Origin: Candidatus Omnitrophota bacterium
GTDB lineage: Bacteria > Omnitrophota > Gorgyraeia > Gygaellales > Profunditerraquicolaceae
DNA length: 45,353 bases
Reading direction: 5' to 3'
Assembly (NCBI GenBank): GCA_018825985.1
Contig: JAHKAP010000078.1
Span: 1 to 45,353, forward strand
The notes beneath the pieces were generated by a model. That model did not search any database and had not been told where the DNA came from. It saw nothing but the letters and a program-made list of their open reading frames with translations. The stretch's first letter is position 1. Each line of letters starts with the position of its first letter. The translations under genes and the position numbers were made by a program. Below are positions 20,498-28,719 of the stretch, in pieces.

Positions 20498-22054
20498 CTA
20501 TTTGGCGTACTCAATCGCCCTAGTTTCTCTGATTACAGTAACCTTGATCTGGCCCGGATATTCCATTCCTTCTTCTATTTTTTTACGAATCTCCCTGGCT
20601 AAATTAACCGCTTCCGGGTCATTTATCTTTTCCGGCTGGACTATTACCCTGATCTCCCTGCCGGCTTGAATAGCATAGGATTTTTCTACGCCTTTAAAAA
20701 CATTGGCGATAGACTCTAATTTATCTAACCGCTTAATATAAGTCTCCAGGGTTTCGCGCCTTACTCCCGGACGGGCAGCGCTTATTCCGTCAGCAGCCAC
20801 CAATAGTACGGCATAAATGCTTTTGGGCTCGGCTTCTTCATGGTGGGCCTCAATAGCGTGAATTACTTCCGCGGACTCATTATATTTCTTAGCCAGATCC
20901 CTGCCTAATAAAGCATGGGTTCCTTCGACCTGATGATCTACGGCTTTCCCGATATCATGCAACATACCTATCCTGCGGGCCAATTTAAAATCTAAACCCA
21001 ATTCGGTGGACATGACTCCTAAAACAAAAGCCACTTCTTTGGAATGCTGCAGGGTATTTTGACCATAGCTGGTGCGAAAACGCAGGCGGCCTAAAAGTTT
21101 CACAATCTCCGGATGCAAACCGTCGATACCGACATCAAACGCAGCTTTCTCGCCTTCTTCTCGGATCTTTTTATCTATATCCAACTTGGCCTTTTCCACT
21201 ACCTCCTCGATCCTGCCCGGATGGATCCTGCCGTCGCTGACCAATTTCTCCAACGCCAGCCTGGCGATCTCCCGACGCACCGGGTCAAAACAGGACAAAG
21301 TTATCGCCTCAGGGGTATCGTCGATAATAATATCCACCCCTGTTGCCATTTCCAAAGCCCGGATATTCCTTCCTTCCCTGCCGATAACCCTGCCCTTCAT
21401 CTCATCGTTCGGCAGATTAATAACACTGACTGTTGATTCTACGGTATGTTCGACAGCGCATCTTTGGATAGCCAGACTAACTACCTCCCTGGCTTTGTTT
21501 TCCGAAGTATTGCGCAGTTCTTCTTCGTAGCGCTTGATCAATACCGACTTTTCCGCGCTCAATTCTTCATTCAATCGGCTGAGCAGGATCTGTTTGGCCT
21601 CCTCAACAGACAACGATGACATCTTCTGCAACCTCTCTTTTTCTTCGGCGATTAAAGCATGCAGTTGATTATCTTTGACCTTGATCGAATCTTCCTGTTT
21701 CTTTATGTTATCCTGCCTGGAAACGATATCTTTTTCCTTGCCTTCCAGAAGATTAAGCCGACGGTCAATATTTTCTTCTTTCTGAGAAAGTCTTTTCTCT
21801 GAATTAAATATCTCCTGCCTGCGTTCCTTGGTCTCTTGTTCAAAATCCTGGCGCATCCGGTACAAAAGGTCCTTAGCCTCCAATTCGGCCCTACGCTGCC
21901 GGTCTACAGCCTCTTTTTTGGCCTCATCAATAATATACCTGGCCTTGGCTTCCGCATCTTGGATCTTTTTTTCAGCTATATATCTCCTGAAAAGATAGCC
22001 TGCGGATGAAAAAACCGCAGCGCTAATAACAACTACAATGATGGTTATCAGCAT
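20498..22054 (-). CDS. rny: Ribonuclease Y
   Basis: This membrane-anchored endoribonuclease initiates mRNA decay in many bacteria. It has an N-terminal transmembrane helix (about residues 3-20). A long charged coiled coil spans about 30-190, a KH domain around 205-270 includes the [13 protein letters not shown] motif, and an HD phosphohydrolase domain has HDIGKAVDH near residue 365. The 518-residue length is typical. The Shine-Dalgarno GGGAGG sits 9 nt before the ATG. It lies between fthC and ymdB. Confidence 0.96.
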
Positions 22055-22087
22055 CTATATTTACCTCCCTTTTTGTTCCTTATAAAA

Positions 22088-22645
22088 TTATGCGAAGATG
22101 ACTTTGTTGACGGATACATCCTGGGGCGTGGCGGGGAGAGACGACTTGACCTGGAAACCAAAAGCCAGGCCGATAGAGACGGCTTTATCTGGTAGTTTTT
22201 TTAAGAAACGGTCGTAGTAGCCCTTGCCGCGGCCCAGGCGCGAGCCATCCTTAGTAAAAGCTACGCCGGGAACTACTACAAGGTCTAGATTTTTTAAATT
22301 AACCGGCTTTTTATTCACCGGCTCTGGTATCCCATAAGGGCCTTTGGCCATCCTAGCATTGTCTTCCAATAAACAGGCCCTTATTATTTTATCTTTCTCG
22401 CAAACAGGCACTACGACCTTTTTACCTAACTGTCTCGCTTCCTGAATCATCTCTTTTGTAATAACCTCGCCCATAAATGAAACATAAAACATCACTATCT
22501 TCGCTTTTTTAAAGAACCGTGTTTTAAAAAGTTTATTTTTAATCTGCCTACTTTTTCGTTTACGGTCTTCCTCCTTCTGTGTTTTCAGTTTTAACTGAAT
22601 TTTACTACGTATTTCTTCTTTTGTCAACCCAACTGCTTTAGGCAT
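22088..22645 (-). CDS. fthC: 5-formyltetrahydrofolate cyclo-ligase
   Basis: This enzyme converts 5-formyl-THF to 5,10-methenyl-THF with ATP and so feeds the one-carbon pool. The 185 residues include a basic N-terminal helix (KEEDRKRKSRQIKNKL) and the signature DGSRLGRGKGYYDRFL near residues 132-147. It lies immediately after a MetV-like folate gene, which makes a one-carbon role coherent. It belongs to the conserved fthC-rny-ymdB-xseA order. The alternative names ygfA and MTHFS refer to the same family. Confidence 0.9.
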   Translation of the reverse strand: MPKAVGLTKEEIRSKIQLKLKTQKEEDRKRKSRQIKNKLFKTRFFKKAKIVMFYVSFMGEVITKEMIQEARQLGKKVVVPVCEKDKIIRACLLEDNARMAKGPYGIPEPVNKKPVNLKNLDLVVVPGVAFTKDGSRLGRGKGYYDRFLKKLPDKAVSIGLAFGFQVKSSLPATPQDVSVNKVIFA

Positions 22646-23299
22646 TTACTTAACCGCCCCCACCTTGCGCGGCTTGCCGCTTTTCTTAAAATCTTTAGGA
22701 GGCCAGATCAAACGCAGGGCGTCTAATTTATTCCTCTTCTCTAATTCCCGGTAAATTAAAATCCAGGCGCAGTCTTTATCAGTATCCAATTCGCATTTAC
22801 CGTTATTTACCCCCCCGCAAGGCCCGTTTAAAAGACCTTTTGAACAAAGCGTAACCGGGCAAATTCCCTCGGTCAAATTTAAAACACAATCGCCGCAGAG
22901 TGAACACTTTTCATGAAAATTACCGTATCTATCCATGGCTGCGCCAAACAGGGAATTGCATCCGGTGAGGACCACTAAACCACTTTTATCGTTATCCTTT
23001 ACTGACTGCACCCCTAATCCGCAGGCAAAAACTAAAATTACCTCTGCCTTAGTCAGAACAAGACTATTTTTCCTTATCTCCTGATTTGTCTGGACTGCCA
23101 CGCACGGAGCAGAGGGTATACACATACCTACCACGGCCTTGCCTTCTTTTTCCAGTAATTCCTTGACCCTGGTTAATTCGTCCTTGCCTCCGGTCTTACA
23201 GGTAGTGGCGCATTCACCGCAGCCAACTAAAAAAATATTGTGGAATCCTTTTAGGCTATTTATTATCTCTTTGACGGGTTTTTGTTCTGTTATTATCAT
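22646..23299 (-). CDS. MetV-like methylenetetrahydrofolate reductase C-terminal domain protein
   Basis: This 217-residue Cys-rich protein matches the stand-alone MTHFR C-terminal domain called MetV in acetogens, where it partners MetF and carries metal or Fe-S centres. Cys clusters are visible at CGECATTC (about residues 27-34), KCSLCGDC (about 131-138), and GICPVTLCSKGLLNGPCGG with GKCE further on. No metF lies in the window, so the partner must be elsewhere. It sits between the PilZ gene and fthC in one operon. Assignment is by motif recall. Confidence 0.75.
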   Translation of the reverse strand: MIITEQKPVKEIINSLKGFHNIFLVGCGECATTCKTGGKDELTRVKELLEKEGKAVVGMCIPSAPCVAVQTNQEIRKNSLVLTKAEVILVFACGLGVQSVKDNDKSGLVVLTGCNSLFGAAMDRYGNFHEKCSLCGDCVLNLTEGICPVTLCSKGLLNGPCGGVNNGKCELDTDKDCAWILIYRELEKRNKLDALRLIWPPKDFKKSGKPRKVGAVK

Positions 23300-23305
23300 A
23301 TTTAG

Positions 23306-23695
23306 TTAGCAGTTACTTATAAAGTCAGCGATTAAATTACGGTCCCCAGCGCCTATCTCGGTAAAAAGAATCCCGATCCGGAAACCATCCCTGCCCATGG
23401 CCCGGCTATACTTAACTTGTCCTTTAATGCTTATCGGGATTGGCAGGTTCTGGTGCGTAATTTTATGCAAAGCTGGCAGGGTAAATTTTACCTCCAATAA
23501 AGAAGAAGCCGGGATATCGTATTCAGTCAAAACCGCCATCCCGGTCTGGCTTAAGTCCAACATCAGCGCGTATATTTCCTTACCGCGGGAAATTTTAATT
23601 TTTTCCAATGAATCCTGACTGTTATAAAGAACCATAAAATTAACCCGGATCCGTTTATGGCTGCGGCGATCCGGTCCAGAATATCCACCAGGCAT
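23306..23695 (-). CDS. PilZ domain protein
   Basis: This 129-residue protein has the two c-di-GMP-binding signatures of PilZ: an Arg-rich RRSHKR motif near residues 10-15 and DLSQTG near 48-53. It therefore probably senses cyclic di-GMP. The gene has a strong Shine-Dalgarno (AAAGGAGG) and a promoter just upstream. It is the first gene of the long run that continues through metV-like, fthC and rny. Confidence 0.85.
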   Translation of the reverse strand: MPGGYSGPDRRSHKRIRVNFMVLYNSQDSLEKIKISRGKEIYALMLDLSQTGMAVLTEYDIPASSLLEVKFTLPALHKITHQNLPIPISIKGQVKYSRAMGRDGFRIGILFTEIGAGDRNLIADFISNC

Positions 23696-23730
23696 AGATT
23701 CCTCCTTTACTGCTATGTAACCCAGTTAAT

Positions 23731-23759
23731 ATTTTACCTTAATAGCTTTAAGCGGTCAA
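23731..23759 (-). promoter_or_regulatory. Sigma70-type promoter before the PilZ gene
   Basis: The - strand reads TTGACC (23759-23754), a 17-nt spacer, then TAAAAT (23736-23731). The predicted transcript starts near 23725, about 30 nt before the ATG, and contains a consensus Shine-Dalgarno. This is the best promoter seen for the whole PilZ-to-dxs run. Confidence 0.6.
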
Positions 23760-23810
23760 GTTGTTTCCAGGCCAGACATTGTATCAAATTATGCTGAAAT
23801 TCTAAGATTT

Positions 23811-23910
23811 TTTCACGGATTCACACAGATAAAAAAACGGATCCTCGCGGATAAAACCTTTGTTTCATCCGTGTATATCCGTAAGCAATCCGTGTTTATC
23901 CGTGTTAAAA
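23811..23910. repeat. Degenerate ATCCGTG repeat cluster
   Basis: At least seven copies or near-copies of ATCCGTG or its complement CACGGAT lie in 100 bp. Those in the left half run in one orientation and those in the right half in the other, so the whole is an imperfect palindrome. It fills the space between rarA and the PilZ gene promoter, with no coding frame. It looks like a small non-autonomous repeat, not a CRISPR, because units are irregular and lack spacers of constant length. Confidence 0.65.
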
Positions 23911-23929
23911 GTCAGCAAGATTTATTTTA

Positions 23930-25246
23930 TTATCCGGGGTTACGCAGCTTCTCGAGGCGTTGTTTAATCTTAGCTTCGTAACCGATATCGGTAGGTTCGT
24001 AGTATCTGACTTTGCGGCGGGTATACTTCTGTTTAACATAATGGCCCTCGAAATCATGCGCGTATTTATATCCTTTCCCATGCCTAAGCTTTTCTGCGCC
24101 GGGATAAGTTGCGTCTTTTAAATGATCCGGGACTTCCTGGGTTTTTTCTTTTTCGATATCGGCTGAGGCTTTCTCAATGGCTAAATAACTGGCGTTGGAT
24201 TTAGGAGCACAAGAGACATAAACTACTGCCTGGGCCAATGGGATTCTGGCTTCCGGCATACCTACAAATTCACAGATCTGCAAGGCCGCGTTGGCGAGGA
24301 CCAAAGCCAGGGGATCGGCGTTCCCCACGTCTTCGGCGGCTAAAATACAAACCCTCCGGCAAATAAACCTGACATCTTCCCCGGCATAAAGCATTTTCGC
24401 CATCCAATATATTGCCGCATCCGGATCAGAACCACGCATGGATTTGATAAACGCCGACGCGCTGTCATAATGAGCGTCTTCATCTCGGTCATAAATTATG
24501 GGCTTTTTCTGAATGGACCCGGCGGCAGCCTCCAGATCAAAATTGATCCAGCCATCCTTAGTTAGTTCCGAGCTTAAGACGCCGAGCTCAATAGCATTTA
24601 AAGCCCGTCGGGCATCTCCTTCGCAGGCCTTAGATAAAAAGCCCAAGGCTTTTTTATCCGCCTTTATTTTTAAATTACCTAAGCCGCGCTCTTTGTCTTT
24701 TAAAGCCGAGATTAAAATCTCCAAAATATTGGTCGCGGTAAGAGGTTTTAGTTCTAAAACTAACGAGCGCGAGACCAAAGCCGAGACTAAAGAGAAAAAC
24801 GGATTGTGGATAGTAGCCCCGATCACAATCGGATTGCCGTTTTCAACGTCCGGCATCAAAACATCCTGCTGGGCTTTATTAAAACGATGGATCTTGTCGA
24901 TAAAAAGAGTGGTTTTTTCGCCTGTAACTGCTTTGTGATGTTTAGCCTGGGCGATAACTTTCCTTAATTCGTCCACATTAGAAGTGGTGGCGTTAATAGC
25001 CGCATAGCGGCTTTTGGTGATATGCGAGAAACACCAGGCCAACGACGTCTTTCCTATGCCCGGTGGTCCGTATAAAATAAGGGACGTTATTCTATCTGAC
25101 TCTATTGCCCGGCGCAGAAGTTTGCCTTTACCTAAAATATGTTCCTGGCCCTTAAATTCATCCAAATTAACCGGACGCATACGCACGGCTAAAGGCAAAT
25201 CTTTAAAATTTTCTTTGGGGATATCCTGTTGGGGGAAAAGGTCCAT
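23930..25246 (-). CDS. rarA: RarA/MgsA-family AAA+ ATPase with altered Walker B
   Basis: RarA acts at stalled replication forks. The 438-residue protein has the usual order: AAA+ domain with Walker A GPPGIGKT at 60-67, Walker B LFIDKIH at 114-120, an arginine-finger region VSRS near 158-161, a lid domain and the tetramerisation C-terminus with PEARIPLAQ. Two normally constant sites differ: the Walker B catalytic Glu is Lys118 (codon AAG), and the usual ATTENP reads ATIHNP near 144-149. ATP hydrolysis may be impaired, or there may be a sequence error. The Shine-Dalgarno AAGGA lies at the end of a repeat. Confidence 0.9.
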   Translation of the reverse strand: MDLFPQQDIPKENFKDLPLAVRMRPVNLDEFKGQEHILGKGKLLRRAIESDRITSLILYGPPGIGKTSLAWCFSHITKSRYAAINATTSNVDELRKVIAQAKHHKAVTGEKTTLFIDKIHRFNKAQQDVLMPDVENGNPIVIGATIHNPFFSLVSALVSRSLVLELKPLTATNILEILISALKDKERGLGNLKIKADKKALGFLSKACEGDARRALNAIELGVLSSELTKDGWINFDLEAAAGSIQKKPIIYDRDEDAHYDSASAFIKSMRGSDPDAAIYWMAKMLYAGEDVRFICRRVCILAAEDVGNADPLALVLANAALQICEFVGMPEARIPLAQAVVYVSCAPKSNASYLAIEKASADIEKEKTQEVPDHLKDATYPGAEKLRHGKGYKYAHDFEGHYVKQKYTRRKVRYYEPTDIGYEAKIKQRLEKLRNPG

Positions 25247-25255
25247 GGATTTTCC

Positions 25256-25322
25256 TTATCCGCCGCAAAGTCGCCACAAGAATTGGCGACCCGCCAAGCT
25301 GTGTGGCGGGATTGGCGGATTG
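25256..25322. repeat. TGGCGG-type palindromic repeat upstream of rarA
   Basis: Nested inverted units of TGGCGG/CCGCCA and TGGCGA/TCGCCA cover the rarA leader. Its last 20 or so bases (on the - strand, TGGCG-CTTTG-GGCGGA) closely match the end of the element at 36374-36456 beside tRNA-Val. The two appear to be members of one dispersed repeat family. This copy supplies the end of the rarA leader, close to its Shine-Dalgarno. Confidence 0.7.
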
Positions 25323-25354
25323 GTTTCACTTGACTGAACATGCCCGGCGAAACC
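25322..25354 (-). promoter_or_regulatory. Hairpin just downstream of 6S RNA
   Basis: The - strand has GGTTTC paired with GAAACC across a 21-nt loop. It follows the T-run that ends the 6S RNA gene, and precedes the repeat in the rarA leader. It might help separate 6S transcription from rarA, but it has no T-run of its own. Confidence 0.35.
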
Positions 25355-25359
25355 AAAAA

Positions 25360-25535
25360 AAATCCCCGCACTGTGCCGTTGGATTTTGATGGTCTGAACC
25401 CGAAGTTCAGGTGGAAACCGCTCTTTTAAAACCTTGGCCTTAAAAGAAGTTGCGGCTCCCCTTATATTTATGTTGGTTCAACAATCACCAACCTCCTAAC
25501 GCGCACGGCAGGGAAATCTAAAAGAACATTTCTAT
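25360..25535 (-). ncRNA. ssrS: 6S RNA
   Basis: 6S RNA binds sigma70 RNA polymerase by mimicking an open promoter. The - strand folds as 6S. Closing stem strands lie near 25520-25500 and 25382-25364 (UCCCUGC with GCGGGGA, GUGC with GCAC, CGUU with AACG). A central bubble has a side hairpin GUUGG/CCAAC on the 5' side and the strong CUGAAC-UUCGG-GUUCAG hairpin on the 3' side. The apical arm has GCCGC/GCGGU and CUUUUAA/UUAAAAG. The 3' side segment closely resembles E. coli 6S (CACCUUGAAC...GGUUCAAGG). The closing stem plus T8 can serve as terminator. It has its own promoter and lies upstream of rarA. Ends are approximate. Confidence 0.85.
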
Positions 25536-25541
25536 AATGGG

Positions 25542-25569
25542 ATTATAGCACTTTTTTAAAAATAGTCAA
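25542..25569 (-). promoter_or_regulatory. Promoter of 6S RNA
   Basis: TTGACT (25569-25564), a 16-nt spacer and a perfect TATAAT (25547-25542) lie just before the predicted 6S 5' end. The transcript would start near 25535. This is one of the strongest promoter matches in the window. Confidence 0.75.
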
Positions 25570-25573
25570 CAAT

Positions 25574-25640
25574 AAATGGGGTCAGAATTATTTTTTTACT
25601 TGTTTGGTAGAAAAAGAGGAAAATAATTCTGACCCCATTT
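25574..25640. repeat. Perfect 21-bp inverted repeat (REPIN-like)
   Basis: Arms at 25574-25594 and 25620-25640 are perfect complements of 21 bp around a 25-bp A/G-rich loop. The outer part of each arm is AAATGGGGTCAGAATTA. From memory, GGGGTCAGA-type ends occur next to REP-associated tyrosine (Y1) transposases in metagenomes, so this may be a non-autonomous unit mobilised in trans. It lies between the pheT stop and the 6S promoter, and could also act as a bidirectional hairpin. Confidence 0.8.
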
Positions 25641-25642
25641 CT

Positions 25643-27676
25643 TTAGCGAAGCTGGGCCTGAAATTTATTTTTTAGAACTTCCAGGGTCAGTAAATGCGCG
25701 GAATTAACTTCTTCTTCGGTAAGGGTTCTTTCTTCTGAACGGTAAACACAAGAGAAGGTCAGGCCGCGAGACCCATCAGGTATCTGTTTTCCCTGGTAAT
25801 AATCAATTACTTTTGCTTCCCTTAAGAGCGCTCCGGCATTAGCTTTGATCTCATCCAACAGCGCGTCTACAGAAATTTCTTTCTTAACGACTACGCTAAT
25901 ATCCCGGGATATCGAAGGGTAAACCGGCAGGGACGAGAATTTTCTATTTAAATTAACCAGGTTGATGATCCGGCCCAAATACAACTCGGCTATAAATACT
26001 TCTTTATTCTTAATGTCGAAATTGTCCAGGGTTTCTTTTATAACCCGGGAGGCCCGGCCAGTTAATTCTTTATTTACAAAGATATCGACAGACTTATCGG
26101 GGGATAAAACAAATTTATAATCATTTATGCCTAAGCGTTCAAGCAGGGTTGATATTATCCCTTTGATATGCAATAGCCCCTGTTCATCCTTTATCTGCCC
26201 CTGGCTGAAAAGCCAGGACTTAACTCCGGATATGCCAATTGCCAACGCGATATCTTCCCTGGGGTTATCTTTACCAGCGGAAAATATCTTGGAAATCTCA
26301 AATATACCGATAAAGCTTTGTTTTTGATTCAGGTTGACGGCTATTGCTTTAAGTATGCCGGGGATGATCGTCGGCCTTAGGACCTCCTGTTCTTTGCTTA
26401 AAGGATTGCGGATCTCTACCAAGCTATACTGACCCATCCCCTTTAATAAATCCTTGCTGATCAGGCTGTAACTTATTATCTCGCTAAGCCCGAGGCTGAT
26501 TAATATGCTTTTAATCAAATAGACCCTGTCTGTATCAGTATAGGCGCTGACTTGCGGCTTAACCGCGGGCAAGGTTACCGGCACATTCTCAAAACCGTAA
26601 ACACGGGCAATCTCTTCGATTAAATCGACATCGGCTTTAACGTCCTGACGGGATAAGGGCGTTTCTACTGAAAAAACCCCCTTAGACTTAAAGCTCACTG
26701 CAAAACCCAAATTGCCAAGTATGGACTTTACCCGGGAAGAGGTTATGTTAACCCCCAATAATTTTCCGGTATGGTCCAGACTAAGATTGACCTTTGTTTT
26801 TTTTGGGGCTGGCAGGCCTGATTCTTCAGCTAAAACACATTTACCAGCGCATAATTCTTCAATCAACCTGGTTGCCTGCCAGGACGCATTCCGGGCTGTT
26901 TCATAATCGATCCCCCGTTCAAACCTGTACGCTGATTCGCTTTGCATCCCCAGCTTTCTTTTCCCCTGACGAATGACTATAAGATTAAATATGGCTGCTT
27001 CCAGGAGCACGTTCTTAGTTGATCCGTCTACTTCGGTATCTTTGCCCCCCATAATCCCGGCAATCGCCACCGGTTTTTCTTTATCCGCGATCACTAAGAT
27101 ATCTTGTTCCAAAACCCTCTCTTGATCATCAATGGAAGTTATTTTCTCGTATTTTTTAGCCCGGCGGATGAATATTTTATCCGAATCCAGTTTATCCAGG
27201 TCAAAGGCATGCATAGGTTCTCCATAGGTGAACATAATATAATTGATGATGTCCACTATATTATTTACACTGCGGCAGCCGACCATTTCCAACCTTTTAC
27301 TTAACCATTCCGGCGACGGTCTAATTTTAACATCCCGGATAATTTTGGCGGTGTATAAAGGGCAGTCCTTTTTGTCCTCGATTTCAATTTTAAAGCTTGT
27401 TTTGGGCTGGGGGCTTAGGGATTGGGACCCGGAGGTTGACTTTAAACTTTGAATTTTAAGTTTGGAGTTAGTGATTGCGGCCGCCTCCCTGGCGACCCCG
27501 ACCACGCTCAGCCAATCCGGACGATTAGAGGTGATTTCAATATCAAAAACAAAATCCCCATCTTTGGCTTCCAGGGACCTTACCTCCAATCCGGCCATGG
27601 TCAGCTTATCGGCTAATTCTTCCGCCGGAAGCCTGATATCAACAAAATCTTTTAACCAATTATAAGTAAATTTCAT
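25643..27676 (-). CDS. pheT: Phenylalanyl-tRNA synthetase beta subunit, short form
   Basis: PheT forms the (alpha-beta)2 PheRS with PheS. The 677-residue protein begins with the usual YNWLKDFVD, but passes from GLEV (about residue 29-32) directly to FDIEITSNRPDWLS near residue 43-57. The roughly 110-residue EMAPII/OB tRNA-binding insertion of long bacterial PheT is therefore missing. The B3/B4 editing domain, B5, and the C-terminal FDX-ACB domain (SRDISVVVK near 590) are present. A hexamer repeat supplies AGG sequences before the ATG. It follows pheS by 29 nt. Confidence 0.93.
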   Translation of the reverse strand: MKFTYNWLKDFVDIRLPAEELADKLTMAGLEVRSLEAKDGDFVFDIEITSNRPDWLSVVGVAREAAAITNSKLKIQSLKSTSGSQSLSPQPKTSFKIEIEDKKDCPLYTAKIIRDVKIRPSPEWLSKRLEMVGCRSVNNIVDIINYIMFTYGEPMHAFDLDKLDSDKIFIRRAKKYEKITSIDDQERVLEQDILVIADKEKPVAIAGIMGGKDTEVDGSTKNVLLEAAIFNLIVIRQGKRKLGMQSESAYRFERGIDYETARNASWQATRLIEELCAGKCVLAEESGLPAPKKTKVNLSLDHTGKLLGVNITSSRVKSILGNLGFAVSFKSKGVFSVETPLSRQDVKADVDLIEEIARVYGFENVPVTLPAVKPQVSAYTDTDRVYLIKSILISLGLSEIISYSLISKDLLKGMGQYSLVEIRNPLSKEQEVLRPTIIPGILKAIAVNLNQKQSFIGIFEISKIFSAGKDNPREDIALAIGISGVKSWLFSQGQIKDEQGLLHIKGIISTLLERLGINDYKFVLSPDKSVDIFVNKELTGRASRVIKETLDNFDIKNKEVFIAELYLGRIINLVNLNRKFSSLPVYPSISRDISVVVKKEISVDALLDEIKANAGALLREAKVIDYYQGKQIPDGSRGLTFSCVYRSEERTLTEEEVNSAHLLTLEVLKNKFQAQLR

Positions 27677-27682
27677 ATTTTA

Positions 27683-27704
27683 CTCTACCTATACCTTTAC
27701 CTAG
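27683..27704. repeat. AGGTA-hexamer repeat in the pheS-pheT gap
   Basis: On the - strand the gap between pheS and pheT is mostly AGGTAA-AGGTAT-AGGTAG units, matching the repeat at 14006-14068. The last AGG lies 10-12 nt before the pheT ATG, so the repeat may double as its ribosome binding site. Confidence 0.6.
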
Positions 27705-27705
27705 A

Positions 27706-28719
27706 TTAAAACTGCCTTAAAAACCTCAGGTCGTTCTCAAAGAATAATCTGATATCGTTGATCCCGTATTTAAGCATAACGATGCGCTCAATCCCCATCC
27801 CAAAGGCAAACCCGGAATATTTTTTGGTATCATAGCCCACATTCCTTAATACGTTAGGGTGGATCATCCCTGAACCAAGAATCTCCAGCCAGCCTTTCCT
27901 GCCGCAGACCGGGCACCCTCGGCCTTTACAGATTATACAGGATATGTCCACTTCCGCTGATGGCTCGGTAAAAGGAAAAAAGTGCGGCCGGAAACGCATC
28001 TTAATATCTTCGCCAAAAACGCTCCTGGCAAAAACCTCTAATATCCCCTTGAGGTCGGAAAACTTTATCCCCTCATCTACCATTAAACCTTCTATCTGGT
28101 TAAACATAAATAAATGGCTGGCGTCTACCGCATCCGGACGATATACCCTCCCCGGGACCACGATGGCCAGCGGAGGCTTGCGGGATTTCATTGCCCGGAC
28201 CTGGACTGGCGATGTATGACTACGTAATAGCAGCTTTTCGTAATCTTTTAGGTAAAAAGTATCAAAGGCGTCCCGCGACGGATGTTCCAGGGGAATATTC
28301 AAACCGCTGAAATTATTATATTCAGTCTCTATCTCCGGGCCTTCTACCACCTGAAAGCCCATCCGCAAAAATATATTACAGATCTCATCAATGACCCGGG
28401 TAATAGGATGCAATTTCCCCACCTCTTGGGAGACCCCGGGCATACCAATGTCCACGGATTCTTGCATCGCTCCGCTGGCCGGGCTACCAAATAACTTTTC
28501 TTTCTCTAAAATAAGATTGGCAATCTTATCTTTGAGGATATTAGCCTGCTGGCCAAAAACGGCCCTTTCTTGCGCCGGTAAAGAAGGAATGGTTGCGGTT
28601 AATTGAGCAAGAACCCCCTTGCGCCCCAAATACTTAAACCGCGCTTCTTCCAGGCCCTCAGACGAAGATATATTTTGTATATCCGACTCTATTTGTTTTT
28701 TAATTGCCTCAATATCCAT
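27706..28719 (-). CDS. pheS: Phenylalanyl-tRNA synthetase alpha subunit
   Basis: This is the catalytic class II subunit. The N-terminal helical coiled coil (residues 1-90) precedes the core with HPITRVIDEI near residue 105, the motif 2 region, and the C-terminal GSGMIHPNVLRNVG and GFAFGMGIERI near residues 285-325. It also has a Cys-containing insert CIICKGRGCPVCGRKGW, which is common in bacterial PheS. The 337-residue length is normal. It precedes pheT as usual. Confidence 0.95.
   Translation of the reverse strand: MDIEAIKKQIESDIQNISSSEGLEEARFKYLGRKGVLAQLTATIPSLPAQERAVFGQQANILKDKIANLILEKEKLFGSPASGAMQESVDIGMPGVSQEVGKLHPITRVIDEICNIFLRMGFQVVEGPEIETEYNNFSGLNIPLEHPSRDAFDTFYLKDYEKLLLRSHTSPVQVRAMKSRKPPLAIVVPGRVYRPDAVDASHLFMFNQIEGLMVDEGIKFSDLKGILEVFARSVFGEDIKMRFRPHFFPFTEPSAEVDISCIICKGRGCPVCGRKGWLEILGSGMIHPNVLRNVGYDTKKYSGFAFGMGIERIVMLKYGINDIRLFFENDLRFLRQF

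Follow-up and report, generated by a model that had tools for sequence, protein, structure and literature searches.

The window, by which we mean the whole stretch of 45,353 nucleotides that was analysed, carries on its minus strand a 6S RNA gene, located between two open reading frames of the same strand that we take to be pheT (upstream) and rarA (downstream). The features of the locus are collected in Table 1. The position upstream of rarA agrees with what had been claimed in an earlier reading made from the sequence only, and the best relatives of this rarA in the contig search are named Candidatus Omnitrophota.

Table 1. Features of the 6S RNA locus, in coordinates of the window
Feature	Coordinates	Strand	Basis and remarks
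rarA (presumed)	23930..25246	-	ORF list; downstream, same strand
U8 tract, likely terminator	25355..25362	-	from sequence; straight after the closing stem, GCGGGGA-U8
6S RNA body	25359..25517	-	RF00013 full model, MFE z score, consensus structure; RNA nt 1 = 25517
Putative pRNA template	25472..25489	-	invariant nt 42-47; GG at pRNA positions 4/5
boxA-like element TGTTCTTTTAGA	25517..25528	-	in leader; core GTTCTTT at 25521-25527
-10 hexamer TATAAT, TG-extended	25542..25547	-	promoter scan; start would lie ~7 nt further on
-35 hexamer TTGACT	25564..25569	-	promoter scan, letters checked
REP-like palindrome	25571..25643		24-nt arms, 96% complementary; fills the gap from pheT to the 6S -35
pheT (presumed)	25643..27676	-	ORF list; upstream, same strand

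The Rfam search (cmscan) gives a match to RF00013 with 59.4 bits, to be compared with a gathering score of 46.4, and the model is covered completely (positions 1-187). The minimum free energy (MFE) of the minus strand is -68.7 kcal/mol with a z score of -6.45, none of 200 shuffled sequences being equally low, and the plus strand of the same stretch folds more weakly (z -3.45). The minus-strand fold shows a long closing stem, a large central bulge and a terminal hairpin arm. The full 6S architecture claimed in the sequence-only reading is thus found in both the complete model match and the fold, and the identification as a 6S RNA gene, for which the Rfam covariance model had been named as a check, is borne out by that model, by the fold, and by the covariation, promoter and gene neighbourhood described below.

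The interval given in that reading, 25360-25569, named no strand and spans promoter, leader and RNA together. No open reading frame of at least 80 aa overlaps it, in line with its having been called intergenic; the further remark that gene finders miss the gene holds for ORF finders and fails for Rfam-based annotation. The gene is single-copy; a search of the draft genome (1.77 Mb) for a second one gave no further RF00013 match. Twelve of 13 Rfam matches, located around the palindrome and beyond the 6S RNA (miRNA families, a plastid 3' UTR and others), are all below their gathering scores and are taken as chance matches to a near-perfect hairpin. A U-rich tract stands 3' of the 6S RNA in most of 40 relatives inspected by eye, and is broken in some (L124, L126, L140 and L148). 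The U8 tract of the window is absent from the list of the terminator scan, which permits loops of 3-8 nt only.

The consensus structure of 46 aligned 6S genes of the order has 31 pairs, 12 of which changed on both sides. In this alignment 97.1% of the cells are paired and two-sided changes number 41, values that were not reached in any of 500 shuffles, although these statistics are biased in favour of the structure, since it was derived from the same alignment. Slid versions of the structure pair only 33-50%. Six letters of the bulge strand, C42, C43, A44, A45, C46 and A47 (CCAACA), are invariant in all 46 genes. The pRNA of E. coli 6S RNA starts at U44; by analogy, the pRNA of the present RNA would start opposite C46 and read 5'-GUUGGUUCAACAAUCACC-3', with GUUGG as its first letters. 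A GG at pRNA positions 5/6 or 4/5 is described as a common feature (PMC8414754). The apical hairpin arm is missing, with the rest retained, in a group of 6S RNAs of 133-137 nt (L128, L132, L144, L239 and L355, the last assigned on length alone).

The 6S RNA of this locus is ordinary by family and, most likely, also by action. That we are dealing with a true 6S RNA gene, acting in the usual 6S mode, is in our judgement highly probable. By analogy with known 6S RNAs, the long hairpin with its central bulge would imitate an open promoter and sequester RNA polymerase carrying the main sigma factor, and the polymerase would be released upon copying a short product RNA from the 6S RNA.

The gene had also been credited with a strong promoter of its own, and a near-consensus extended -10 promoter of the sigma-70 type is indeed predicted there, with a spacing of 16 nt, TG before the -10 hexamer and 11 of 12 consensus matches. 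Two promoter-like sites were found in the region, compared to 0.8 (sd 1.1) in shuffles, and the count alone therefore says little. Better evidence is the promoter form itself, TTGAYT...ATGTGYTATACT, which comparison of the sequences by eye shows to be shared by the relatives. From this promoter a transcript of about 180 nt would start, ending in the U-tract before rarA.

As for the repeats that had been claimed on both sides, the one on the pheT side stands. The arms of the palindrome, TGGGGTCAGAATTATTTT, occur genome-wide as 92 half-sites at no more than one mismatch, 84 of them exact, mostly in inverted pairs with arm starts about 35-43 nt apart. On the rarA side the claim is right only in part: the stretch 25258-25335 recurs once, incompletely, with 78% identity along some 64 bp.

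We now consider the distribution of the gene and its neighbours in the phylum. A 6S match is found in 192 of the 285 Omnitrophota genomes sampled, in 176 of them over the cut-off; the family to which the window belongs has one in 39 of its 50 genomes in this phylum sample, and when the family was searched by itself, 79 of 108 genomes had one. At least 150 6S genes, including that of the window, could be placed among the matches listed. Since the flanks taken were limited to 3 kb (40 loci) or to no more than 1.5 kb (all other loci), and since contig ends clip some of them, the neighbour counts are lower bounds. With this limit, and among the matches listed, rarA lies 3' of the 6S RNA on the same strand (window excluded) in 33/36 loci of the family, where it is often within 20 nt of the 6S match, in 5/9 of the rest of the order, 76/93 of the rest of the class and 10/11 further out. 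A pheT-like gene lies 5' in 33/36, 7/9, 64/93 and 7/11 loci, respectively, among the same matches. In G053, a genome that belongs to another family, there are two 6S genes (L007 and L194). In the window, the minus-strand order over 20498-28719 is pheS-pheT-6S-rarA-PilZ-like-MetV-like-YgfA-like-rny, most of these names being presumed, and this stretch brings together the two known 6S neighbours, that of Firmicutes (rarA) and that of E. coli (ygfA/fau).

The alignment of the promoters revealed a conserved GYTCTTTTAGAT just 5' of the 6S body in relatives. The element of the window, TGTTCTTTTAGA, differs by inspection at one position from the published boxA consensus GYTCTTTAANA (PMC5725501), and a matrix built from 15 rRNA leaders scores it with an empirical p of 0.00011. 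Of the 79 family genomes, 48 have the core GYTCTTT at 8-11 nt upstream of the 6S start: 26/37 genes of the discovery set (among the matches listed, with the last 45 nt searched) and 22/42 hold-out genes not inspected earlier, counts that are not independent trials, since genomes of one family are related. The control windows of the hold-out test contain the core in 61 of 4,160 cases. Among the matches listed, the 45 nt before the 6S RNA contain it in 0/9 genes from other families of the order, in 1/93 of the class (at -21) and in 1/11 beyond (at -36); the class set includes one locus, L013, with a single upstream base, which was dropped from the matrix scoring.

When the leaders are scored by the matrix with 9,458 control windows as background, p is less than 0.01 for 22 and less than 0.001 for 7 of the 37 from the family, and less than 0.01 for none of the 112 from other families, both among the matches listed; in the hold-out set 15/42 fall below 0.01, one of them (L371) at -42. 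The published consensus, tested at starts from -12 to -8, is independent of the matrix built here. It is found without mismatch in 6 and with one mismatch in 39 of the 79 family genes, 45/79 in total, compared to 20 of 26,555 random places at no more than one mismatch, and in none of 112 genes from other families (among the matches listed) with fewer than two.

It is important to note that the motif is not indispensable, as follows from the 31/79 family 6S genes in which the exact core is absent and from the RarA tree of 68 rows, on which the motif label changes at least 14 times, fewer than in 500 shuffles (mean 22.2). A single origin on this tree was considered, and with at least 14 changes it is not clean; from the tree, the motif is distributed across deep branches and would have been lost in places or gained more than once. 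A profile search of 80 named rarA loci, some of which may be species already counted, gave a 6S RNA in 56 and the core at -13 to -7 in 16 of these 56. One carrier of the core, JAQTPJ010000030.1 (L059), is probably outside the family, its RarA being 66% identical and its 6S start resembling that of L209 from another family. Matches to a pattern as short as this arise by chance as well, and a genome-wide search was rejected as evidence for boxA: the pattern YGYTCTTTTRANA has 13 matches, compared to 2 for the reversed control; 12 of the 13 lie inside open frames or opposite them, the remaining one is antisense to the 6S apical arm, and the window's own 6S leader does not fit the pattern.

In 36 of the 48 carriers the core is 10 nt away from the 6S start, and in all of them 8-11 nt, while its distance to the -10 hexamer varies over 13-24 nt (47 measured). 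A distance fixed with respect to the 6S RNA and variable with respect to the promoter fits an RNA element. The -10 hexamer is 24 nt from the 6S RNA in the window, with a family median of 27 (75/79 measured), compared to a median of 11 outside the family (85/113 measured, among the matches listed), where it is at most 12 in 50/85. If transcription begins some 7 nt beyond the -10 hexamer, the long gap would give a transcribed leader of perhaps 15-25 nt, as judged from the -10 position. The core is predicted to be moderately unpaired, with a mean probability of 0.74 (range 0.34-1.0) and 0.72 in the window.

A search for 16S genes in 58 relatives gave 15 readable leaders; the assembly of the window genome has no 16S match, and the comparison thus rests on these relatives. 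GYTCTTT is present in 15/15 of the leaders, 28-133 nt before the 16S match, and in 14/15 it occurs once only in 330 nt; in L154 there are three sites, of which the nearest was used. The letters after the core differ, often being TTGANAAT in the 16S leaders and TTAGAT in the 6S leader of the window. In 10/15 leaders ATAGCCAAG, possibly a boxC, follows soon after; no boxC-like letters were seen by eye in the 6S leader. The 16S leaders of Omnitrophota (L155-L168) often have, by eye, a GC-rich hairpin and a T-run before boxA. The boxA-like element of the 6S gene borders immediately on the closing stem's 5' strand, a miniature of the 16S leader layout.

Two other stable RNAs were examined as carriers. 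Before RNase P RNA, exact GYTCTTT is found within 45 nt in 6/30 leaders of the family (L287, L261, L274, L277, L279 and L282), the core standing 15-19 nt before the RNA; the window genome's own version is GGTTCTTTGTCA (L287). By the matrix, 4/30 leaders have p<0.01 (one at -25), 10/30 have p<0.05 and none has p<0.001, which as sequence evidence is suggestive only. For tmRNA the idea is unsupported, with exact GYTCTTT in 0/30 leaders within 45 nt, 1/30 at p<0.01 and 3/30 at p<0.05.

On this basis, the following scenario can be proposed. NusB-S10 would bind the boxA-like element on the nascent pre-6S RNA, and the genes for NusB, S10 and NusA are present in the window genome. By analogy with the 16S leader and trailer, the bound NusB-S10 would hold the 5' strand of the closing stem near the polymerase until the 3' strand emerges, and the leader would be removed afterwards. 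Binding of Nus factors to the nascent leader is what the motif and its placement moderately favour; the tethering role, in which the leader boxA would help the closing stem to form, is put forward more tentatively, with the odds somewhat against it. The overall reading, to which we assign a probability of about 0.5, is that in this family the 6S RNA joined the rRNA regime: boxA at the closing stem would recruit NusB-S10, the polymerase would help to fold its future inhibitor, and the ribosome and the antagonist would share a control factor. RNase P RNA might be a further member of this NusB-S10 set.

A different option is that the motif is an RNase processing signal that makes the mature 5' end of a plain 6S RNA, and not a Nus site. 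The constant 8-11 nt to the 6S start in all 48 carriers would suit this, as would the mostly short -10 gap (median 11) in other families, which are without the motif, and the U-rich, mostly unpaired letters might suit a single-strand RNase. However, a processing site needs no likeness to boxA, yet 45/79 genes are within one mismatch of the published consensus, and the core is also found ahead of 16S rRNA, a place at which a boxA is to be expected. We consider this option unlikely.

It is also doubtful that the element acts in antitermination, that is, by causing read-through of the 6S U-tract into rarA, whose expression would then follow growth. In favour of this, rarA is next on the same strand in 33/36 family loci among the matches listed, many at a distance of no more than 20 nt, and resistance to termination is described for the antitermination complexes of rrn operons and of phages (PMC10250234). 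However, the linkage of 6S and rarA is equally common where the motif is lacking, in 76/93 loci of the class and 10/11 beyond, again among the matches listed. Furthermore, the rrn complex withstands mainly Rho rather than intrinsic terminators. Finally, pairing of the leader with the 6S apical arm (UUUUAAAAGAGC) to give an alternative fold and a built-in switch, an idea based on the complementarity, by eye, of UUCUUUU in the window's leader to part of the 3' apical arm, is very improbable, because three relatives without the arm (L128, L132 and L144) keep the motif, and also given that, by eye, relatives differ in the arm but agree in the core, and that the core is mostly unpaired when the precursor is folded.

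The gene itself is one more 6S RNA from a phylum that is known almost exclusively through metagenome assemblies. Should the boxA of the leader work, the rRNA transcription complex would have a regulatory RNA of 160 nt among its targets, and 6S synthesis would be tied to the availability of NusB-S10. The system would also offer a direct test of boxA tethering in RNA-end pairing, on an RNA about one tenth the size of 16S rRNA.

Compared to known systems, the RNA shares with 6S RNA/SsrS (RF00013) the closing stem, the central bulge, the conserved GGUUCA pairing and a putative promoter of its own, and with 159 nt it is shorter than the 187 positions of the model. As for ssrS-fau (ygfA) of E. coli, a gene downstream in the window (22088-22645, about 2.7 kb off) is presumably 5-formyltetrahydrofolate cyclo-ligase-like; fau follows ssrS after 75 bp, whereas here rarA and two further open reading frames intervene. 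The boxA-like leader of 48/79 family genomes has no counterpart in the 45 nt upstream of E. coli ssrS. In lactic acid bacteria and for 6S-1 of B. subtilis, the 6S gene is likewise near rarA (PMC8414754); in the former, rarA is described as upstream of the 6S gene, whereas in the window it is downstream, with pheT upstream.

The boxA-like leader is a new feature on a 6S RNA of known family; a literature search in which subscription papers were mostly outside the scope found no report of boxA on 6S RNA, Omnitrophica/Omnitrophota included. In the portion of PMC5725501 that describes the boxA target list, non-coding RNAs are not among what was considered, and boxA before CRISPR arrays, which are non-coding transcripts, is reported through works cited in PMC7862264. 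The GYTCTTT core in a leader is shared with the boxA of rrn, suhB and CRISPR arrays (PMC10250234, PMC5725501, PMC7862264); the present element differs in that its host is a 6S RNA, that it adjoins a closing stem and that its Nus binding is a prediction. In the tests of PMC10250234 the loss of boxA cost only two- to threefold in activity. In the model given there, NusB binds boxA and retains the 16S leader at the RNA exit up to the point where the trailer appears and pairs with it (PMC10250234). The rrn boxA stands, as the element described here does, before an RNA whose ends pair.
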